A stretch of 23,127 bases of DNA from a virus, in IMG/VR virus record IMGVR_UViG_3300042485_003792, positions 1-23,127 of that record; one strand, given 5' to 3'. Below, one piece after another: positions 189-23,016 of the stretch. Position 1 is the stretch's first letter. Each line of letters starts with the position of its first letter. The notes under the pieces are model-generated. The model made no database searches. It worked only from the letters and a program-made list of their open reading frames with translations, and was not told the DNA's origin. The position numbers were made by a program, and so were the translations under genes.

Positions 189-797
189 TTATATAATAGG
201 GCAGGTGCCCTTAGCGCATAGAATTTCTGTTAAAATTCCACTTGCTTTACTGTAATGGTTACTTGTGTTGTATTCTTTTCCTTCGCGCACTAAGTGCATA
301 TATGAACCTGGATTGGAAGGTGTAGAAACAAAATCCCAACATAGAAGTTCAAAGTCGTCTTGTACCTCTAGTGTACCTTCACTCATTTGTTTTAAAGAAC
401 CCATACCGCGAGAAGAAACACCTACTTGAACATTATTTTCAATTAATGCTTTTAAAATATTACCTGAAACAGTTGGTAGTATTTCTATCTTTCCTACTAC
501 GTGGTCTCCATCCCAAAAGATACTTCGGATAATATGAGATACGTTTTTAAGATTGATGATAGAGGAGTCTGGATGGTCTAGCTCACCTGTTGCTCTGTTT
601 TCTTTAACAACTTCCATGTATCTATCTATTTCGCGTTGCCATAGATCTTTTTTGTAGTAACGGCCGTTTCCGTTTTTAACTTCAGCCGTAGCTAAAATAC
701 CTTCTACAATGGGGTTGCCTGCTGGAGATTTAGTACCTTCAGTTAATTGAACAGGATTAACCTGAAACGCTTGGGTTTCAATTAATACTTGTTTCAT
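189..797 (-). CDS. gp21: Prohead core protease (T4 gp21-like)
   Basis: This is a 202-residue serine protease of the T4 gp21 type (T4 gp21 is 212 residues). In T4 it matures the prohead by cutting scaffold, capsid and internal proteins after (L/I)-x-E. Visible landmarks are GNGRYY near residues 43-48, the histidine motif GELDHPDS (H75), the core block FWDGDHVVGKIEI (94-106) and the nucleophile motif VGVSSRGMG (S128/S129). The start ATG overlaps the stop of the upstream gene by one base. Residues 5-7 (LIE) and the late segment HLVREG resemble its own target sequence, consistent with the self-processing known for gp21. It is the last gene before the terminator at 138-163. The substrate set proposed for this window depends on this protein. 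Confidence 0.93.
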   Translation of the reverse strand: MKQVLIETQAFQVNPVQLTEGTKSPAGNPIVEGILATAEVKNGNGRYYKKDLWQREIDRYMEVVKENRATGELDHPDSSIINLKNVSHIIRSIFWDGDHVVGKIEILPTVSGNILKALIENNVQVGVSSRGMGSLKQMSEGTLEVQDDFELLCWDFVSTPSNPGSYMHLVREGKEYNTSNHYSKASGILTEILCAKGTCPII

Positions 798-3460: not shown

Positions 3461-5350
3461 TTAATCAGTCAGATTAGACTCATCTAATAACGATTCTTTA
3501 GCTTTATCGCTTTGGAATACTAGTTTTTTGTGAAGACCTTCCAATAATGTTCTATTTTTAGATAGTTCAAGTTTAGTACCTTCTAGCGCTAATGGTGAAC
3601 CACCTTTAAATTGAGTTCTACCTGTACCTTCTTGGTCGTCTTTTTTCATATCTTTTTTACCTAAACGATCTCTACCCAATGGGTTATCCTGAGTGTCTAT
3701 ATTAGATGCTTTTTCTTTAGGGCGACCTAATTCAGCTTTTTCATCGTACCCATCTGGTACTGAATTATCAGCGTATCTTTCTCTACCATATAAAGAAGCT
3801 AGATCGTGTGGTGTTCCGTATGAACGGCCAGTTTCGATCGGGTCATTACCTTCTTCAGCTATTTGTTGGTTACGGAATGCGCGTTTTTGGTCTTGGATAA
3901 TTAAATCTCGGTATTCATCGTATTGGTCCTGACTGAATTGGAATACGTTATCATAAATCCAATCTGATGGGATGATTTTAGTATCCAACATTTCTTTAGC
4001 TAGGGCTACTTTTTCTTTTAGTAGAGCAACTTTTTCTTGCTCTGCAATGATTGATGGAGTAGTTAACTTAAGTTCAAAGTTTGTTAATTGCTCACCATCA
4101 TATCCCTGTGAGTACAAGTGTACTAAAGCAATCTTGTATAGCTCAGATAATAGGATTCGTTGAATGCGGTCAATGGTGCGAGCAAAACGAATATCTTCAG
4201 CCGCTAACGTAGCCTTACCAGTTAAGTCTTTTTCATAGCCCATGAACGCTTTAGGTACCTTAAGGGCAGCAAATAGTTTATCTCTTAGGTAAGCTACGTC
4301 CTCGATACCATTGTATTCTAGACCTTTTGTAGTGTCTATTTTAGTTGCAGTGTCATTGCCTCTTACTGGGATGTAGAAATCCTCAAGTAGATTCTGCATG
4401 TTGTACTTTAAGTTATATTCACCTGTTTTTTCATCCATCAATGGAGTTTTCTTCATTGTGTTGATAGTTTTTTGCATAAATGCATCAACCTCTTGTGGTG
4501 GAATATTACCTACGTTGATATAGAAAATACGTTTTTCTGGGGCACGAGCAATACGGTGGATCAACATAGCATCCTCCATCAACACATATTGCTTAAATAA
4601 GCGACGTCCTGGTTCAAGATATGAACGACCATAGGGAAGATAATTTACATCCGTTAATAAGCGGAAGTGAGCTACCTCGTAGTTATCAAATACAATCTGA
4701 TTTTCAGATGGTTTAGTATTTGGAGTAGCATAGTAACCTGAACCACCCGTATAGTATCCATCGGGAGAATAAAGGAATTGAACTTTTGCTGGGTTTTCCA
4801 TGTCAAAGTTTTCGCGTCTTTGAATATGGTATGCTGTATAAGGAATTACGTTATATACACCAAATTTTTCTGCGATCTCTAGCTTTAAGAAAAAATCACC
4901 GTATTTACACATTTGACGAACCCAAGACCATAGATTAAACTCAATGTTAAGTACATCGTAAAATAGATTATAAAGGATTTTTTGAATATCATCGTCGCTA
5001 CTTCTAATTTGAAGTACCTCTCCCATATCGTTCTTTAAAGTACATTCATCCGAGATAATATCAAGGGCAGAAGCTACAATAGCATCGGTATCCATTACAT
5101 CGTAATCACTATAAAGATAAGTTCTTAGATACTGATATTGTATGTTGAATTGTGAACCTAAAAGAGATGTAGAGGCTGGGTTAGTGTAGATTTTTCCAAA
5201 CCTATCTACTAGAGAATTTGTTTGGAATTCACCACTGGTTTGGATATGATCCGTATCAACTACTTTTAGCTGACTTCCACCCTCGTTTCTGATGATTACA
5301 TCAGTTGAAAAGAGTCTTCTTAATCGGGAAAATAAACTAGTATCAGCCAT
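3461..5350 (-). CDS. gp20: Portal vertex protein (T4 gp20-like)
   Basis: This 629-residue protein forms the dodecameric DNA channel at the unique head vertex, where terminase docks and the neck attaches. T4-family landmarks are visible: YLRTYLYSDYDVMDTD (74-89), the block RAPEKRIFYINVGNIP (269-284), IEDVAYLRDKLF followed by AALKVPKAF (349-369), and the downstream helix GKATLAAEDIRFARTIDRIQ (378-397). It is about 100 residues longer than T4 gp20 (524). The extra length is largely a charged, low-complexity C-terminal tail from about 500 onward (KKDMKKDDQEG, LLDESNLTD). It follows terminase after a 24-base gap containing a TATTTATA motif. The identification is firm. Confidence 0.96.
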   Translation of the reverse strand: MADTSLFSRLRRLFSTDVIIRNEGGSQLKVVDTDHIQTSGEFQTNSLVDRFGKIYTNPASTSLLGSQFNIQYQYLRTYLYSDYDVMDTDAIVASALDIISDECTLKNDMGEVLQIRSSDDDIQKILYNLFYDVLNIEFNLWSWVRQMCKYGDFFLKLEIAEKFGVYNVIPYTAYHIQRRENFDMENPAKVQFLYSPDGYYTGGSGYYATPNTKPSENQIVFDNYEVAHFRLLTDVNYLPYGRSYLEPGRRLFKQYVLMEDAMLIHRIARAPEKRIFYINVGNIPPQEVDAFMQKTINTMKKTPLMDEKTGEYNLKYNMQNLLEDFYIPVRGNDTATKIDTTKGLEYNGIEDVAYLRDKLFAALKVPKAFMGYEKDLTGKATLAAEDIRFARTIDRIQRILLSELYKIALVHLYSQGYDGEQLTNFELKLTTPSIIAEQEKVALLKEKVALAKEMLDTKIIPSDWIYDNVFQFSQDQYDEYRDLIIQDQKRAFRNQQIAEEGNDPIETGRSYGTPHDLASLYGRERYADNSVPDGYDEKAELGRPKEKASNIDTQDNPLGRDRLGKKDMKKDDQEGTGRTQFKGGSPLALEGTKLELSKNRTLLEGLHKKLVFQSDKAKESLLDESNLTD

Positions 5351-5374: not shown

Positions 5375-6940
5375 TCAAAGGAGCCAACGGAGATCTTCCT
5401 GCTGATTGCCTATTTTTTGTGTATATGGATTTTGGACAGCGTTGCCTGAATATGCTCCTCCGTGTGTTTTTGTCATCCCGTTTAAAGCAGCTCGGGTCAT
5501 GTCTAAACCGTGTTGCTGGAATTTAAGTGATGTGTCTCTTAAAAGCATTCCAATACCAAACGACATTACTAAATCATCGTTGTATCCGCTTTGTGCCTCT
5601 GGTCTACCGTTTTTCCAAATGAATACTTTCATTTCCTCTAGTAAACGTTTTGAGTGAATTGTTACAGAACGATCGCCAATATATTCTCTAAACTTGTTTA
5701 CCACAAGTGGTCTGGTTTTTAGCGACATTGTAAAACCAGGGGTTAAATTATTACCAAATTCATATCGGTTAAAATACGAATCAGCTGTCACTAAGTCACT
5801 CTTGGGTGACTGGTAGAAGTTTTGATAGCCGCGTTCTATAACAGTTTCTATTGTTGCCCAACCTATTGAGGCGTTCTCTACTACCAATAGAGCATTATTG
5901 TATTCGGCGGCTAGTCCTACTAGAAAATGTCCGAATTCTTTTGGCGATAATTGTCCCTTGTATTCGGCAACTTGGGTGTTTGTTTCAATATCGAGCACGT
6001 GAGCGGCCGAAAAGTCTCTACCATCACCCCTAGCCACGTCGGCTACAACCATGTAATCTCGCGAATAATCAGCAGGTTGCCAAACCCATAGGTTCTTGTC
6101 TGCCCCGCGTCTTTCAACCGGTTCTTTAACGGTAGTTTGGGCTATAAATTCGATCCATTCGGGATAGAATACCGTTTCTCCCGAGGTACTAAAATCACAG
6201 TCACATTCCTGTGCTGCCATTCTAGGATCACCTAGAAGTTCATCTTGTCGTTTCCTCCACGCCTCGTCCCTCTCCGGGTGTACGTACCAAGGTAACTTGA
6301 TAGGTAAGAAGTCGTTCTCTGCTGCTTCCGCTCTTACCCATTGCTGGTGGAACCAGTTTCCAGTTCCATAGGGGGTTGAGAGTACTATTGCTCCACCACC
6401 CGTTGCTAGTGTTTGTTGTGCTGATGCCCATATTTCTCCGATGTTTTCGATAAACGCGGCCTCATCCACTATAAGCAAAGATACTGCTTCTGATCGACCA
6501 GCATCACCTGCTGCCGATACTGCTTTGATTTGAGAACCGTTATTTAATCTTAATGTTAATTTGTTATTTTCGTCTGATGGTACTTTAAGCCATGAAGGTA
6601 GGTTTTCATACATGAATTTTACCTTGGTTACCATGTTTTTAGCTGTTTCCTGTTTTGTAGCTAAACAAAGTATGTTTTTGTCTTTATGGAAAGTCATCAT
6701 CCATAAAGAATATCCGGCCGCTAAAGTTGAAATACCTAACTGGCGAGATTTAAGTACAACCGAATATGGGTTTTCTTTCCAAAGGTTAAGTACCTTACCT
6801 TGGAATGGAAATAGATTGAAGACAACACGGCCACGTTGGGGGTGTTGAATATAACAGTATTTGCGTAGAAAGTGAGCCGGATCTTGGGCGCATTTTACGT
6901 ATTCCTGTTGTATTATTTTTCTTAAATCCTGATCACTCAT
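5375..6940 (-). CDS. terL: Terminase large subunit, ATPase and nuclease (T4 gp17-like)
   Basis: This 521-residue packaging motor cuts concatemeric DNA and drives it into the prohead through the portal. The ATPase domain shows the adenine-binding Q (FPFQ, 45-48), a Walker A-type loop SRQLGIST (65-72), Walker B LLIVDE (155-160) and the coupling motif LSTP (187-190). The RNase H-like nuclease domain has the acidic triad in VADVARGDGRDF (D301), VVENASIG (E355) and GYNDDLVMS (D455/D456). T4 gp17 has SRQLGKTT at the P-loop; here the lysine position is isoleucine, a variation that also occurs in other phage terminases. The protein is about 90 residues shorter than T4 gp17 (610). The start overlaps the upstream gene by 4 bases (ATGA), with AGGA just upstream. 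No intein is visible. Confidence 0.97.
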   Translation of the reverse strand: MSDQDLRKIIQQEYVKCAQDPAHFLRKYCYIQHPQRGRVVFNLFPFQGKVLNLWKENPYSVVLKSRQLGISTLAAGYSLWMMTFHKDKNILCLATKQETAKNMVTKVKFMYENLPSWLKVPSDENNKLTLRLNNGSQIKAVSAAGDAGRSEAVSLLIVDEAAFIENIGEIWASAQQTLATGGGAIVLSTPYGTGNWFHQQWVRAEAAENDFLPIKLPWYVHPERDEAWRKRQDELLGDPRMAAQECDCDFSTSGETVFYPEWIEFIAQTTVKEPVERRGADKNLWVWQPADYSRDYMVVADVARGDGRDFSAAHVLDIETNTQVAEYKGQLSPKEFGHFLVGLAAEYNNALLVVENASIGWATIETVIERGYQNFYQSPKSDLVTADSYFNRYEFGNNLTPGFTMSLKTRPLVVNKFREYIGDRSVTIHSKRLLEEMKVFIWKNGRPEAQSGYNDDLVMSFGIGMLLRDTSLKFQQHGLDMTRAALNGMTKTHGGAYSGNAVQNPYTQKIGNQQEDLRWLL

Positions 6941-11997: not shown

Positions 11998-12513
11998 TTA
12001 TATTGCTAAATCAAAAATTTTAAGATCTCCATTATTATCAACTCCAATATTACCTGTATGAAAATCAATAGATTTATTAGGAAATACATTTAATACATCT
12101 TGAGTAAATTTAATATATTTTAAAAGAGAATTATATACAGATTTATTATTTTTTGTTTTATTTAATAATGTATCTATTTCAGATGAATCATTATTTTTTA
12201 ATAAATAATAAATCATTGTCATAGGATCTTTATCTCGCCACACGTTAATTTGTTCTAAATAGTTTAAAACATTACTAAGATCAGGCATGTCATATAATCT
12301 ATCCATAATAACATATGATTTAGTTAATTCATATATTTTAGGAAATATATCAAGATGTTTATTAAATTGATTATAAAAATATAATTCATCTTGAGTGAAA
12401 CCATCTAAAAAATTACTTTGTTTTTTAATTTTATCTTTACCTATAGCATATACTTTACCTTGTTCTCCTCTACCCAAGTATGTTTCTTTTAATATGTCTG
12501 ATAGTTTAATCAT
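11998..12513 (-). CDS. Minimal protein-kinase-like protein with capsid-targeting-like leader
   Basis: This 171-residue protein shows the kinase signature in order: glycine loop LGRGEQGKVY (13-22), a Lys cluster DKIKKQ (27-32) in the beta-3 position, a candidate alpha-C Glu (E43 in QDELYFY), hinge VIMDRL (68-73), catalytic loop IDFHTGN (149-155) and metal-binding FDLA (167-170). D150, N155 and D168 keep the exact spacing of PKA D166, N171 and D184. The chain ends three residues after D168, so the activation segment and most of the C-lobe are absent. The leader MIKLSDILKE ends L8-K-E10, as in gp21 targets. The gene is visibly more AT-rich than its neighbours. It could be a head-delivered kinase or a pseudo-kinase; protein and small-molecule substrates are both possible. 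Confidence 0.82.
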   Translation of the reverse strand: MIKLSDILKETYLGRGEQGKVYAIGKDKIKKQSNFLDGFTQDELYFYNQFNKHLDIFPKIYELTKSYVIMDRLYDMPDLSNVLNYLEQINVWRDKDPMTMIYYLLKNNDSSEIDTLLNKTKNNKSVYNSLLKYIKFTQDVLNVFPNKSIDFHTGNIGVDNNGDLKIFDLAI

Positions 12514-16207: not shown

Positions 16208-16567
16208 TTAGAATATATCTTCAAATTCTTCTACATCTTGTCCTTGTAACGTTGCAAGGGCTTCTATTGCTTCTTCTCTATTTAAAATACCTTTATCAAT
16301 ATGAATTTGCAAAGCTTTAACTTGAGTATCTAATGAATCGCCTTCATCGTAAAATTTAAGCATATACTTATCATATTTTTCTTGAAAATCATCAACTGGC
16401 ATTTTAGAAACATTAGTGAGATTAGCCTTTATATAATCTATTTCTTCATCTGAAGCATTAGACATAAGAGCATTATTTGGATCTACCATTATAGCAGTGT
16501 CTACTATTATTGCTTCTTTTAATAGTTTACCTTCAGCTAAATATTTTCTAAGATCAAAATTGCTCAT
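16208..16567 (-). CDS. Putative internal head protein, copy A of the FDLxKYLAEGKLLKE pair
   Basis: This 119-residue acidic protein begins MSNFDLRKYLAEGKLLKE. The leader has two possible gp21 cuts, L10-A-E12 followed by G13 and L16-K-E18 followed by A19. The mature part is helical and acidic (DEEIDYIKANL, 40-50; EEAIEALATLQGQDVEEFED near the end). It shares its leader and upstream DNA with the next gene upstream (16588-16947), which has the same length but a different body. The gene is distinctly AT-rich. Its function is unknown. Confidence 0.8.
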   Translation of the reverse strand: MSNFDLRKYLAEGKLLKEAIIVDTAIMVDPNNALMSNASDEEIDYIKANLTNVSKMPVDDFQEKYDKYMLKFYDEGDSLDTQVKALQIHIDKGILNREEAIEALATLQGQDVEEFEDIF

Positions 16568-16587: not shown

Positions 16588-16947
16588 TTAAACTAATCCA
16601 GCTTTTTCATAAACTGTATCATCAGATACGCCTATCCAATTAGCCTTTATAAAACTAGTTTCACTCATATCATCTATATATCTCTCTGAGAATTCAAAAT
16701 AATCTTCTTTACTAATATCTTTTCCTTCAGGAAATTCAGATTTAAAATCATTTAATATCTCTTCATCTTCATAACTCTTAAAAATGTCTAATACTTGATT
16801 ATAAGATATATTAGGTGCAGCCTTAAAAGCAGCATCTAAATCAACTAGATCTTCATCTTTATCATAATAAAGATCAACATTAAACCCTTCATTTTCTTTT
16901 AATAGTTTACCTTCGGCGAGGTATTTTTTAAGGTCAAAATTGCTCAT
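16588..16947 (-). CDS. Putative internal head protein, copy B of the FDLxKYLAEGKLLKE pair
   Basis: This 119-residue, very acidic protein begins MSNFDLKKYLAEGKLLKE, differing from copy A by one residue in the first 18. Candidate cuts are L10-A-E12|G13 and L16-K-E18|N19. The body (NVDLYYDKDEDLVDLDAAF, 23-41; SYEDEEILNDFKSEFPEGKD) has no clear similarity to copy A. The two genes therefore look like one leader joined to two cargoes. Its start lies only 11 bases beyond the stop of the Hc1-like ORF. The function is unknown. Confidence 0.8.
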   Translation of the reverse strand: MSNFDLKKYLAEGKLLKENEGFNVDLYYDKDEDLVDLDAAFKAAPNISYNQVLDIFKSYEDEEILNDFKSEFPEGKDISKEDYFEFSERYIDDMSETSFIKANWIGVSDDTVYEKAGLV

Positions 16948-19372: not shown

Positions 19373-19954
19373 TTAGTCTTTCTTTAGACTCTGTAAATAC
19401 TTAATAGTTTCCTCTTTTGACTCAAGTAGTTTGTTTTTAACTGAACCTGTCCATTTTTCTACGTCACCTGCTTCCGTGATATACGATTGGATAGCATTGT
19501 GTTTGATTTCCTCGTTCATCCATAGCTCAAACGTTTCTATAATACCTTCGATATCTGAATTATATATTGTTTTTTCGTATTCTTCCCAAAGTCCTTCTCT
19601 ACGGATAGCTGCTTCAAAATCTATTTGACAGTTAAAACAGCGTTTGTACATATTAAACCACTTCTTATCCAAATGGGGTTTCATTGTTTTCTTACAGGAA
19701 GGGCAAAAAATCGGGAAATTAACCGCTTCACGCGCTTTATCAAGTTTTGTAACATTTTGTTTAATGCCGTCCTTAATAGTCCACGTCTTATCTTCTTGAT
19801 CCCATATATCTCCTTCGATATGTGGACCTTCTTGTTCTTTTGTAAAACCGACTGAAGTTGAGGATTTATCTGCATATTTTCCTTTTACTAAATTTCTTAA
19901 TCTGTTAACGTCTTTTTCTACAAATTGTTTTTTCAGAACATTTTCTTTACTCAT
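19373..19954 (-). CDS. Zinc-ribbon late protein
   Basis: This 193-residue protein has a four-cysteine zinc ribbon: FCPSC (C84, C87) and RCFNC (C106, C109) separated by a basic loop (KKTMKPHLDKKWFNMYK). The N-terminal part contains DIWDQEDKTWTIKDGIKQNV (49-68), a conserved-looking block. The C-terminal part is an acidic amphipathic helix region with SYITEAGDVEKW (I-T-E|A). It resembles uncharacterised zinc-ribbon proteins of T4-like aquatic phages. It overlaps the 1021-residue gene by 4 bases, so the two are translated together. A DNA- or protein-binding role is likely; the target is unknown. Confidence 0.87.
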   Translation of the reverse strand: MSKENVLKKQFVEKDVNRLRNLVKGKYADKSSTSVGFTKEQEGPHIEGDIWDQEDKTWTIKDGIKQNVTKLDKAREAVNFPIFCPSCKKTMKPHLDKKWFNMYKRCFNCQIDFEAAIRREGLWEEYEKTIYNSDIEGIIETFELWMNEEIKHNAIQSYITEAGDVEKWTGSVKNKLLESKEETIKYLQSLKKD

Positions 19955-22900
19955 AAACCTAAATCTTGTAACTGTTTGATTGTGTTAGCAGCCGATGTGT
20001 GAAGTATACCTATACCACCATTAGCATTCCATGAATCGATAGTATCTTTTCTATCGTCAATTAAAATTTTATCGGGACCTGCAAAGTCGGCTTTTCTACC
20101 AGCAGAACGGAAATATAATTTACGCATATTAGGTAAACGTTGAACCCACTCGGTTTTACCTTGCATTGATTCATTGTTTTCTAACTTATAACGATCTTCA
20201 AATGGGATATCAAAATTAACAGAAGGGGCGGTTAAAACATATGGGTTATATCCTTTAATATAGTCCCAAAGTTGTTTTCCATCGGGCATCCAATCTAGAC
20301 TAGCCCAATATGATTTATCGGATATGTTTTTTTCTTTTAAACTTTTTCCAAATAACTTCCAAAATTCACTTTTACCTTGAGCGTCGGCTTGTTTAGTAGA
20401 TAAACCGGTTAAATCTTTATACCCTTTATCAAAATCTACTAACACACCGTCCATGTCACAAAATATCACATATTTCTTCTCTCCCATTTCCTTATCCATT
20501 TTTTTAACACCCGTATCGTAAAGGTATGAGGACTCTTTTACGTAGGCACTGGTAAAGGAAGGTAAACTTAAAGCTTTTGCTCTTTTAGCCCATAAATCAA
20601 GAATTTCTTTTCTTTCTTGAGGGTTAACTGGTTGTTTATCTAAGTAATCATCTATAACCTCTAAATAAGGTTTACGAGATTTTTTAGCCTTAAAGTAAAG
20701 ACCTTGAAGCATCGCATCTACTTCTTTTTCTAATTTAAAATAGTCTGACTTAGGGAGCAAATCTACATCAATTAGATTTCTGATGAATTCATCATCTTCC
20801 ATATATTTGCTAGGTCTTACTAACCTAGGATCATCACTATCTGTTCCACCTTTTAGATTTTCACCATCTTGTGTTAGGTGTTCAAGCTCGTGTCTTATAA
20901 CGTCCTTTAGATCAAATGAGACTGTCTGCCAATCTATATCTTTTGGGATTTCAAATCTAACGGTAAGGAGAGGTTGAATTCTTTTCCTTTTAGCATCAAA
21001 TCCTGCGTTAGCACCTCCACCTACTTTGTAAGTGTCGTCTGTATAGATTGCTTGAACTACAAAGTCAAATTCAAACTCATCAGAGACAAAATCTACTTCC
21101 TCGTCTGCTGGTCCTACTACAAATAACTCGTCTACTACTTTTTTACCAACATCATATCCGTCTTTCATTAACTCGAAAGCAAAACTAGAAAGTTCGTTAG
21201 TGAGTTTATCGTATCGACCTTCGTTTACTTGTTCTTCTTCTAAACCTTGAGCTAACTCACGAGCATATTGATTTAAACCAAAAGGATCTTTTACTTTACC
21301 ACTTGGATTATTTTGTTTTTTATAATCATCCATATTTTTATTGGATGTTTTTTGACCATCTTCTTCAATACTATCAGTCCAGTTACGGAATGTCATTGTA
21401 CCTTTTAGATTAGCTTCTTTTTCAAGATCATTGATATGATCATCCTCTAAAGTGTTTGTAGTGGATACATCTCCTAATCTACCCTCCAGGTTTTGGATAT
21501 GGTGAATCATCTCATGCGCGAAAGAACGCACAATATCTTTGGGATGACGCCCGTAAGTGTATAGGGTGATAGACTTATTGTCATTATCATAGTACGCGGT
21601 TCTACCCAGGAATTTCTCAGCATTATCCACATCATCACCTACTAGCTTAATGCTGGGGACTGGATCAATATTGTACCCTTTCCCACGCATGTAATTAGTT
21701 AACTCGGCTATTTTTTCGAGTATATCGATTGAGGGGATAGTGTTTTCTGTTATATCTCTATAGTTTTGAGATGGTGGGAATGTTCCCATTTTTTTCTTAG
21801 CCTGTTCCTTTGTTTTATAGGGACCAAATTCTTGTCTAATACCAGGAGCAAATGGGTTGTCTTGAATATAGTAGTATTTATCTCCTCTTTTTTCAATAGC
21901 TCTGTAGCGGGGTGGATTACCAGATGCTGTTCTTTCTTTTACTGTTTTATATCCTGAACCGAATGGAGCTGATTTACCATCGTGATTAGGTGCTACGTTT
22001 TCTTTTTTTAAACGTTGTGTTTTTTCTTTAGATGCTTCTTTTTTCTGTTCGGCATAATCTAAAGCAGTTTTTAAACGTTTTTTAACTTCAGGGTCTTTTG
22101 CTCTCTCGTAAGCTGCTCTAACACGTTGGTGAATTAAGTTAATTACCTGAGATTTGCGAGCGTGTGGCTTTGACTTAAAAGATGCTTTAGAAAATGTATC
22201 TATAATATCCTGTTTAGTAGAGAATTTTACTTTAACTGTATCGCTTGGATTTTCATCAGTGTATAATCTACGAGATGATCCTTTTGGTTTTTTACCTGTT
22301 CCTTTTTTAGGATCTGCTTCCTCTAAACCACCAGGTGTAGCTAATTGTTTACCGGTTTTAGCGTCTATATCGTAACCGCAAGACCCTTCTTTAAAAACAG
22401 TAGGTTCTAAAATATTGTAGATATCTTCTTTCTCGTTAGCTGGTACTTCAGTAGGTAAATAAGTAAAGAATTGTTCTTTATCTCCTTTTTTAAGTGCTTT
22501 ACGAGCATTTGTTCCGCTCATATCACCCGATGGGGTTTTGATTACTCGAACCTCTAAATTAGGGTATTTTTCTTCTACCCCTTTAGTGCGGTTTTTGATA
22601 TCATCTAAATCATCCTCTCTACCCTCACGATAACCAATTACAAAATATACTTTTTCGTCTGGGTGGTTTTTAGCATAGCGCATTATATCGCCAATAGGGG
22701 TAGCTGATGGTTCTATTTGAACTTTGGATGGAAGTAATTCCTTGTAAATATCCCATACTTGTAAAGATTGTTCTTGCTCGATTCCGTCTCGAACACCACT
22801 TCCAACATAGATTATAAATTTATCTATGTCTTTAAAATCTTTTAAAGCTGTTTTAACTAAGTCAAAGTGACCTTTAGTGGGAGGTTTGAACCCCCCACCA

Positions 22901-23016
22901 TAGATAGCTGTGACGGATTGCCCGTCTATTAGCTCCCTAACCAGAAACTTAGTTAACTCGTCCAATTTATCTAAGCTTATTAATAAGCTCTTTTGCTTTA
23001 GTTTTCTTTTCTTCAA
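19951..23016 (-). CDS. Large multidomain protein: nucleotidyltransferase-like, two metallopeptidase-like regions, HAD phosphatase-like
   Basis: This is a 1021-residue protein if the ATG at 23016 is used. Domain 1 (about 35-195) is a cytidylyltransferase/NMNAT-type Rossmann domain with AIYGGGFKPPTKGHF (37-51) and MSGTNARKAL (166-175). A linker follows with a basic module (SSRRLYTDENPSDTVKVKFS, 247-266; VINLIHQRVRAAYERAKDPE, 291-310). Domain 2 (about 424-550) has FAHEMIHHIQNLEGR (H501, E502, H505) and E534 in LEKEANLKG. Domain 3 (about 600-790) has VIRHELEHLTQDGE (H709, E710, H713) and E765 in LEKEVDAMLQG. Domain 4 (848-1021) is HAD/5'-nucleotidase-like with FCDMDGVLVDFD (D854, D856), T929 and ILIDDRKD. 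(L/I)-x-E sites (LEEA at 231-234, ITEN at 422-425) and VNEG at 597-600 fall at linkers. The ATG overlaps the upstream gene by 50 bases; a TTG at 22965, one base after that stop, is an alternative start. Confidence 0.9.
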   Translation of the reverse strand: MKKRKLKQKSLLISLDKLDELTKFLVRELIDGQSVTAIYGGGFKPPTKGHFDLVKTALKDFKDIDKFIIYVGSGVRDGIEQEQSLQVWDIYKELLPSKVQIEPSATPIGDIMRYAKNHPDEKVYFVIGYREGREDDLDDIKNRTKGVEEKYPNLEVRVIKTPSGDMSGTNARKALKKGDKEQFFTYLPTEVPANEKEDIYNILEPTVFKEGSCGYDIDAKTGKQLATPGGLEEADPKKGTGKKPKGSSRRLYTDENPSDTVKVKFSTKQDIIDTFSKASFKSKPHARKSQVINLIHQRVRAAYERAKDPEVKKRLKTALDYAEQKKEASKEKTQRLKKENVAPNHDGKSAPFGSGYKTVKERTASGNPPRYRAIEKRGDKYYYIQDNPFAPGIRQEFGPYKTKEQAKKKMGTFPPSQNYRDITENTIPSIDILEKIAELTNYMRGKGYNIDPVPSIKLVGDDVDNAEKFLGRTAYYDNDNKSITLYTYGRHPKDIVRSFAHEMIHHIQNLEGRLGDVSTTNTLEDDHINDLEKEANLKGTMTFRNWTDSIEEDGQKTSNKNMDDYKKQNNPSGKVKDPFGLNQYARELAQGLEEEQVNEGRYDKLTNELSSFAFELMKDGYDVGKKVVDELFVVGPADEEVDFVSDEFEFDFVVQAIYTDDTYKVGGGANAGFDAKRKRIQPLLTVRFEIPKDIDWQTVSFDLKDVIRHELEHLTQDGENLKGGTDSDDPRLVRPSKYMEDDEFIRNLIDVDLLPKSDYFKLEKEVDAMLQGLYFKAKKSRKPYLEVIDDYLDKQPVNPQERKEILDLWAKRAKALSLPSFTSAYVKESSYLYDTGVKKMDKEMGEKKYVIFCDMDGVLVDFDKGYKDLTGLSTKQADAQGKSEFWKLFGKSLKEKNISDKSYWASLDWMPDGKQLWDYIKGYNPYVLTAPSVNFDIPFEDRYKLENNESMQGKTEWVQRLPNMRKLYFRSAGRKADFAGPDKILIDDRKDTIDSWNANGGIGILHTSAANTIKQLQDLGL

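Follow-up and report, generated by a model that had tools for sequence, protein, structure and literature searches.

A permutable chain of enzyme modules in a T4-like phage, proposed as a head-internal polyprotein cut by the prohead protease

In the virus record IMGVR_UViG_3300042485_003792, from a T4-like phage of marine Bacteroidetes, one gene encodes a single chain of several different enzymes. The stretch analysed (the window) is the entire 23,127-base IMG/VR fragment. The chain is probably a late cargo polyprotein of the phage head, targeted by an N-terminal leader, cut by the prohead protease gp21 and released with the DNA. It is built of distinct modules that are shuffled among relatives, a short motif is present at every junction between enzymes, and gp21 is encoded in the same genome. 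The short leader, which resembles the T4 capsid-targeting sequence, would bring the chain into the prohead core, where the gp21 serine protease would cut after the Glu of [L/I/V/M]-x-E motifs in disordered linkers during maturation. The products freed in this way would be a nucleotidyltransferase, a basic domain B with its companion segment R, two HExxH metallopeptidase-like domains and a 5'-nucleotidase-like HAD domain. By analogy with the T4 internal proteins and Alt, these enzymes would be packaged with the DNA in the head and presumably enter the host at infection, where they may serve nucleotide or nicotinamide adenine dinucleotide (NAD) chemistry at the start of infection and proteolysis of host proteins. 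A broader proposition is favoured with somewhat less confidence, namely that such phages carry a permutable set of cargo enzymes behind one leader, delivered in equal numbers and cut by the prohead protease, so that in-frame fusion behind an L-x-E site would turn any gene into ejected cargo.

The minus strand carries the open reading frame (ORF), which stays open at the contig edge. The original prediction, which gave no strand, placed its start at TTG 23016 and its length at 1021 residues; this start was rejected because the additional stretch runs, in another frame, over the tail of the upstream gene (stop 22967-22969). That overlap, together with an exact ATG at the position equivalent to TTG 22965 in five relatives (L003, L004, L007, L010 and L022), where it directly follows the stop of the upstream gene, sets the start at 22965 and the protein at 1004 residues. 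Six modules are recognised rather than four, and what had been described as basic linkers is the conserved, separately occurring module B, of which there are numerous free-standing copies, plus the short R. The predicted sites LEEA (231-234), ITEN (422-425) and VNEG (597-600) were found exactly as described and begin at 214, 405 and 580 when counted from the true start. A border site between MP2 and HAD (YVKE/S, P1 residue 811) and further sites at 193 (FKE/G) and 577 (LEE) had been missed. Release of each half, as previously suggested, is an understatement, as cutting at the sites would yield as many as five pieces. The features of the gene are as follows.

19951..22965, minus strand: polyprotein gene, 1004 residues, start TTG at 22965
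22915..22965, minus strand: short N-terminal leader like a capsid-targeting sequence, MDELTKFLVRE/LIDGQS (cut bar after VRE)
22411..22914, minus strand: NT, predicted HIGH-superfamily nucleotidyltransferase, residues 18-185, with TKGH at 22867-22878 and SGTNAR at 22501-22518
22387..22389, minus strand: P1 codon of candidate gp21 site FKE/G
22318..22320, minus strand: P1 codon of candidate gp21 site LEE/A, NT/B border
21997..22314, minus strand: B, basic KKGTGKKPKGSSRRLYTDE domain, residues 218-323, free-standing in many relatives
21760..21909, minus strand: R, RYRAIEKRGDKYYYIQ segment, residues 353-402, which travels with B
21745..21747, minus strand: P1 codon of candidate gp21 site ITE/N, R/MP1 border
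21370..21744, minus strand: MP1, predicted zincin-type metallopeptidase, residues 408-532, with HEMIHH at 21499-21516 and the downstream Glu motif LEKEAN at 21409-21426
21220..21222, minus strand: P1 codon of candidate gp21 site VNE/G, MP1/MP2 border, at the end of a linker modelled with low confidence (disordered)
20554..21219, minus strand: MP2, second HExxH domain, residues 583-804, with HELEH at 20878-20892 and LEKEVD at 20716-20733
20533..20535, minus strand: P1 codon of candidate gp21 site VKE/S, MP2/HAD border
19954..20478, minus strand: HAD, putative 5'(3')-deoxyribonucleotidase (NT5C)-like domain, residues 830-1004, with DMDGV at 20443-20457

Profile scans of IMG/VR detected relatives of MP1 (at least 511), MP2 (at least 249) and B (at least 589), and 263 related loci were compared. 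Individual modules are missing from some of these loci, and elsewhere they are permuted, fused or encoded on their own. The architectures include NT-MP1-MP2 (41), NT-MP1-MP2-HAD (19), NT-MP1-HAD (17) and NT-B-MP1-HAD (6), as well as NT-MP2-B-MP1, NT-MP1-B-HAD and HAD-MP2-MP1-B. The HAD module is fused in 56 complete NT..HAD ORFs; in 50 cases it is instead a separate gene that directly follows the NT-containing chain, mostly no more than a few bases away. Free-standing copies of B, HAD, MP1 and MP2 were all found; presence of the modules as separate genes in relatives had been named as a check. One locus (L018, 2642-4204) has approximately 115 extra residues between NT and B, including a hydrophobic segment absent from the other members.

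The junctions share a motif irrespective of module order. A comparison of 177 non-redundant linkers against domains and shuffled sequences showed [LIVMF]xE in 174 of the linkers, and the only exceptions were three of the six linkers between B and R; each of the 15 other junction types carries the motif in every linker. With a site in only half of the linkers between them, these two modules can be regarded as a single unit. The extended motif [LIV]xE[NGAS] occurs 201 times in linkers compared with 71±8 after shuffling (2.8-fold), and [LIV]xD, [LIV]xK, [LIV]xQ, Ex[LIV] and [LIV]xxE are barely or not enriched. The ratio of observed to expected motifs is 2.78 in linkers, 1.50 in ordinary phage ORFs and 0.43 in folded domains. 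In the window protein, 10 of the 15 [LIVF]xE motifs fall within the 158 linker and leader residues (binomial p ~1e-5). At the MP2 border, P3 (L/I/V/M), P1 (Glu) and P1' (Gly) are nearly fixed across proteins that are ~40% identical and P2 accepts more than 10 residue types, the pattern to be expected if selection acts on a protease site rather than on a folded segment. The distance from the site to the next domain is 0 residues for MP2, about -1 to 0 for B, mostly 11 for MP1 and 3-4 for HAD.

Several observations nevertheless weigh against cleavage at these motifs. The linkers are Glu-rich, and composition alone would place [LIV]xE in 69% of them, compared with 96% observed. Moreover, the linkers are related to one another, five copies of the motif lie inside domains of the window protein and the B/R border is often without a site. 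In shuffling tests the motif seemed depleted within domains (z about -8 to -10), whereas a column-wise test gave z values of -3.1 for NT, -2.6 for MP2, -0.1 for HAD and +2.3 for MP1. A purge of the motif from domains was consequently dropped as strong evidence, since the column-wise control shows it to be mostly a property of the folds. It could also be argued that the sites are scars of fusion, that is, leftover leaders of formerly separate genes in a chain that works uncut, and the leaders of free-standing modules do end in the same site. At the junctions, however, the leader helix is mostly gone and the site alone is kept, in all module orders, and the freedom of P2 beside fixed P3, P1 and P1' in such divergent proteins makes this explanation very unlikely.

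Two other elements were noted in the linkers. The element KDPFGLNxYAxELAxGLEE is present in 61 copies (L002, L005, L015 and others), all of them in linkers and never in domains or other ORFs. A zinc-ribbon-like CxxC..CxxC segment (for example, IECDNCGWSW...YICHKCDHDN) is found in MP1>MP2 linkers (L090, L168) and beside the DPFG segment (L036, L128).

The proposed cutter and the genes that mark its surroundings are encoded in the window.

189..797, minus strand: gp21-like prohead protease (Peptidase_S77), proposed cutter; PF03420 93.7 bits, phrog_207 E 2e-56
3461..5350, minus strand: gp20-like portal, which marks the head-gene block; phrog_213 E 5e-63
5375..6940, minus strand: gp17-like terminase; closest isolate Flavobacterium phage Immuto, 59% identity

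In T4, gp21 cleaves after the Glu of L/I-x-E (PMC9026906). The junction motif matches this published rule, with V, M and F also found at P3. A gp21 is encoded in all 10 long relatives, and [LIV]xE occurs in the gp23 of nine of them (ten copies) at the place where the T4 propeptide is cut (PMC9026906). Close to its own N terminus, the gp21 homologue of the window carries LIE and LTE motifs, which recall the LIE-9 that has been considered in connection with autocleavage of T4 gp21. Free-standing modules carry leaders with the site of the fused chain: MP2 begins MKYIKQFENFLINE/GRYD or MKYIKMFESFTLNE/GRYD (cut bar before GRYD), B begins MIKLVDLLKEITE/GDPK (cut bar before GDPK), in each case the site of the fused junction, and the leader of free-standing HAD has the same kind of site. 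The leader of the window polyprotein, MDELTKFLVRE, resembles those enriched in head genes. In Immuto, the share of genes with [LIV]xE[NGASQD] within residues 4-32 is 54% in one head block and 62% in the other, compared with 13% among early genes and 3% among tail genes. The likeness of these leaders to T4 capsid-targeting sequences, the motif in every module order, the gp21 gene in the window and the free-standing modules together lend good comparative support to a polyprotein processed by the prohead protease, which had been raised as one possibility from the outset.

These data also bear on the alternative that the chain is a cytosolic multifunctional enzyme of nucleotide or NAD metabolism, made during infection and left unpackaged. 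NT and HAD are nucleotide enzymes of kinds that phages often encode for metabolism. However, the gene sits in the head block near gp17, gp20 and gp21, both in the window and in Immuto, leaders and sites are present, and the chain also includes a pair of peptidase-like domains and a strongly basic module; a cytosolic enzyme is the least probable of the explanations considered.

Leaders of similar kind were observed on other proteins. The cassette F-D-L-[KR]-x-[FY]-L-x-E is common to differently continuing proteins of the related loci, is N-terminal in 31/31 ORFs and is a candidate capsid-targeting leader. Two small proteins of the window (16208-16567 and 16588-16947, minus strand) carry this cassette in their shared leader MSNFDL[RK]KYLAEGKLLKE and continue differently. 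A kinase-like protein (11998-12513, minus strand; phrog_18305, E 9e-5) has the leader MIKLSDILKE/T and is possibly an ejected protein kinase. In Immuto, gp067 (L027, 37647-38888), at the scaffold position between gp21 and gp23, contains a tandem repeat (GFEQWLDSVSAQMDKFGKNNPTIQAIEKAV..) with an x-E/G site before each copy.

The identities of the modules were assessed by profile and model comparisons. Sequence motifs and profiles support NT as a HIGH-superfamily nucleotidyltransferase: TKGH and SGTNAR correspond to the superfamily motifs (H/T)xGH and SxTxxR, NT alone scores 21.8 bits against PF01467 (cut-off 21), and the best PDB match of its profile is the nicotinamide mononucleotide (NMN) adenylyltransferase MJ0541 (1f9a, E 9e-4), with both motif regions aligned. 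Scores against the NCBIfam equivalogs for NMN/nicotinate adenylyltransferase are far under the cut-off. HAD is likewise supported as an NT5C-like, putative 5'-nucleotidase by the motifs DxDGVxxDF and LIDDR and by a match to phrog_2643 (E 4e-25). PF06941 matches HAD in 19 of 27 relatives, the window HAD scoring 18.4 bits, under the 24.8 cut-off, and a PDB match was obtained to the mitochondrial 5'-nucleotidase 4mum. A plasmid search gave matches to HAD only, and these were distant.

Both predicted HExxH regions are present, as HEMIHH (484-489) and HELEH (692-696) in true-start numbering. An alignment of 87 MP1 sequences revealed invariant R, D, R, HExxH, Q and a downstream E..A, with H78, E79, H82 and E109 all invariant. 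In an AlphaFold2 model of MP1 and MP2, built from 46 sequences, the predicted local distance difference test score is ~90 for MP1 and exceeds 90 over much of MP2, and the greater part of the linker between them scores <50. In the VIA structure comparison, Wss1/SPRTN occupied the top rows for MP1 (Z 8.1-7.1) and almost all of the top 50 were zincins; the best neighbour was Wss1 (Z 8.1, root-mean-square deviation 3.6, 102 residues aligned). The modelled HExxH helix, the downstream Glu on a second helix and the core fold thus support MP1 as a zincin metallopeptidase, as had been proposed. For MP2 the same proposal is plausible and the domain is a putative zincin. Its invariants are HExxH and a downstream E-x-D-A, with the E/D/Q of LEKEVDAMLQ unvarying; its order is helix-sheet-helix, and its VIA matches are weak, with M3 peptidases and HtpX among the best rows and none above Z 4.3. 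Three of the enzyme-like modules originally proposed (NT, MP1 and the NT5C-like HAD) are supported, and MP2 weakly so. Pfam zincin families (DUF6782, M76, M91, M78 and DUF6647) matched MP1 relatives below cut-off only, neither the MP1 nor the MP2 profile had a credible match among PDB sequences, and Foldseek against the PDB returned nothing significant for either model (best for MP1+MP2, 3dti IrrE, E 0.056). The idea that MP1 and MP2 share an ancestor was rejected on comparison of their profiles, as hhalign aligned only the HExxH stretch, at a probability of 5.6%. A scan of bacterial genomes with MP1 found eight contigs of metagenome-assembled genomes only (L277-L284; Flavobacteriales, Winogradskyella and others) and no cellular source emerged; these are probably binned phage contigs, and they hint at flavobacterial hosts.

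The presence of a zincin raises the question of whether the chain, as a polyvalent protein, is cut by its own metallopeptidase domains instead of by gp21. Zincin domains are a hub of polyvalent proteins, and autoprocessing by embedded metallopeptidases has been proposed for P1 DdrB and N4-like RNA polymerases (PMC5512222). The linker motif, however, follows the gp21 rule, is found also in gp23 and in the leaders of free-standing HAD, free-standing B and head genes without a peptidase, and is retained in many architectures that have one peptidase only. Autoprocessing is therefore considered unlikely and cutting by gp21 is preferred.

If cutting by gp21 is correct, the system would unite the capsid-targeted internal proteins of T4 with the polyvalent proteins of phages and make the prohead protease a polyprotein protease. 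Leader and junction motif would then predict, from sequence alone, which unknown marine-phage genes travel inside the head, and would offer a route to identifying early effectors that are ejected. Because an isolate carrying the system exists, the proposal is directly testable. In Flavobacterium phage Immuto (NC_055915), gp088 is an NT-MP1-MP2 chain (34% identity over 70% with the window polyprotein) with HAD as the next gene (gp087) and the same synteny; unlike in the window, HAD is separate, and gp088 lacks B and R and has an extra N-terminal region. The two genes are annotated merely as NMN adenylyltransferase and nucleotidase, and no Immuto virion proteome was found in the literature searched.

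Among known systems, the T4 internal proteins IPI-III and Alt share a short N-terminal leader, an L/I-x-E site and T4-like gp21 and head genes in the same genome. However, the T4 substrates shed terminal propeptides to give one mature protein, whereas here the sites lie between enzyme domains. Polyvalent proteins (Iyer et al. 2017, PMC5512222) similarly hold several phage enzyme domains per chain, include zincins and have a late-gene neighbourhood, but embedded peptidases are their proposed processors and here the sites match a separate gp21. The original comparison with polyvalent effectors thus fits the architecture, with its zincin and late-gene neighbourhood, and not the hallmark non-peptidase domains: ART, ArdC-N, DdrB-ParB, helicase and methyltransferase gave no Pfam, PHROG or NCBIfam match at E up to 1 in the window polyprotein. 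Giant phages of the SPN3US/phiKZ type also eject head proteins that a gp21 homologue has matured by cutting after Glu motifs, with propeptides cut several times, although 13 of the 14 cuts mapped there take off N-terminal propeptides and separation of enzyme domains is unreported (PMC10052503). The literature searched contained no report of a prohead-protease polyprotein, and the combination of a permutable enzyme chain with cutting by a capsid protease is not previously described there, although its parts are known. Polyvalent proteins are the nearest concept, and T4 internal proteins and Alt, together with giant-phage head proteins, the nearest mechanism.

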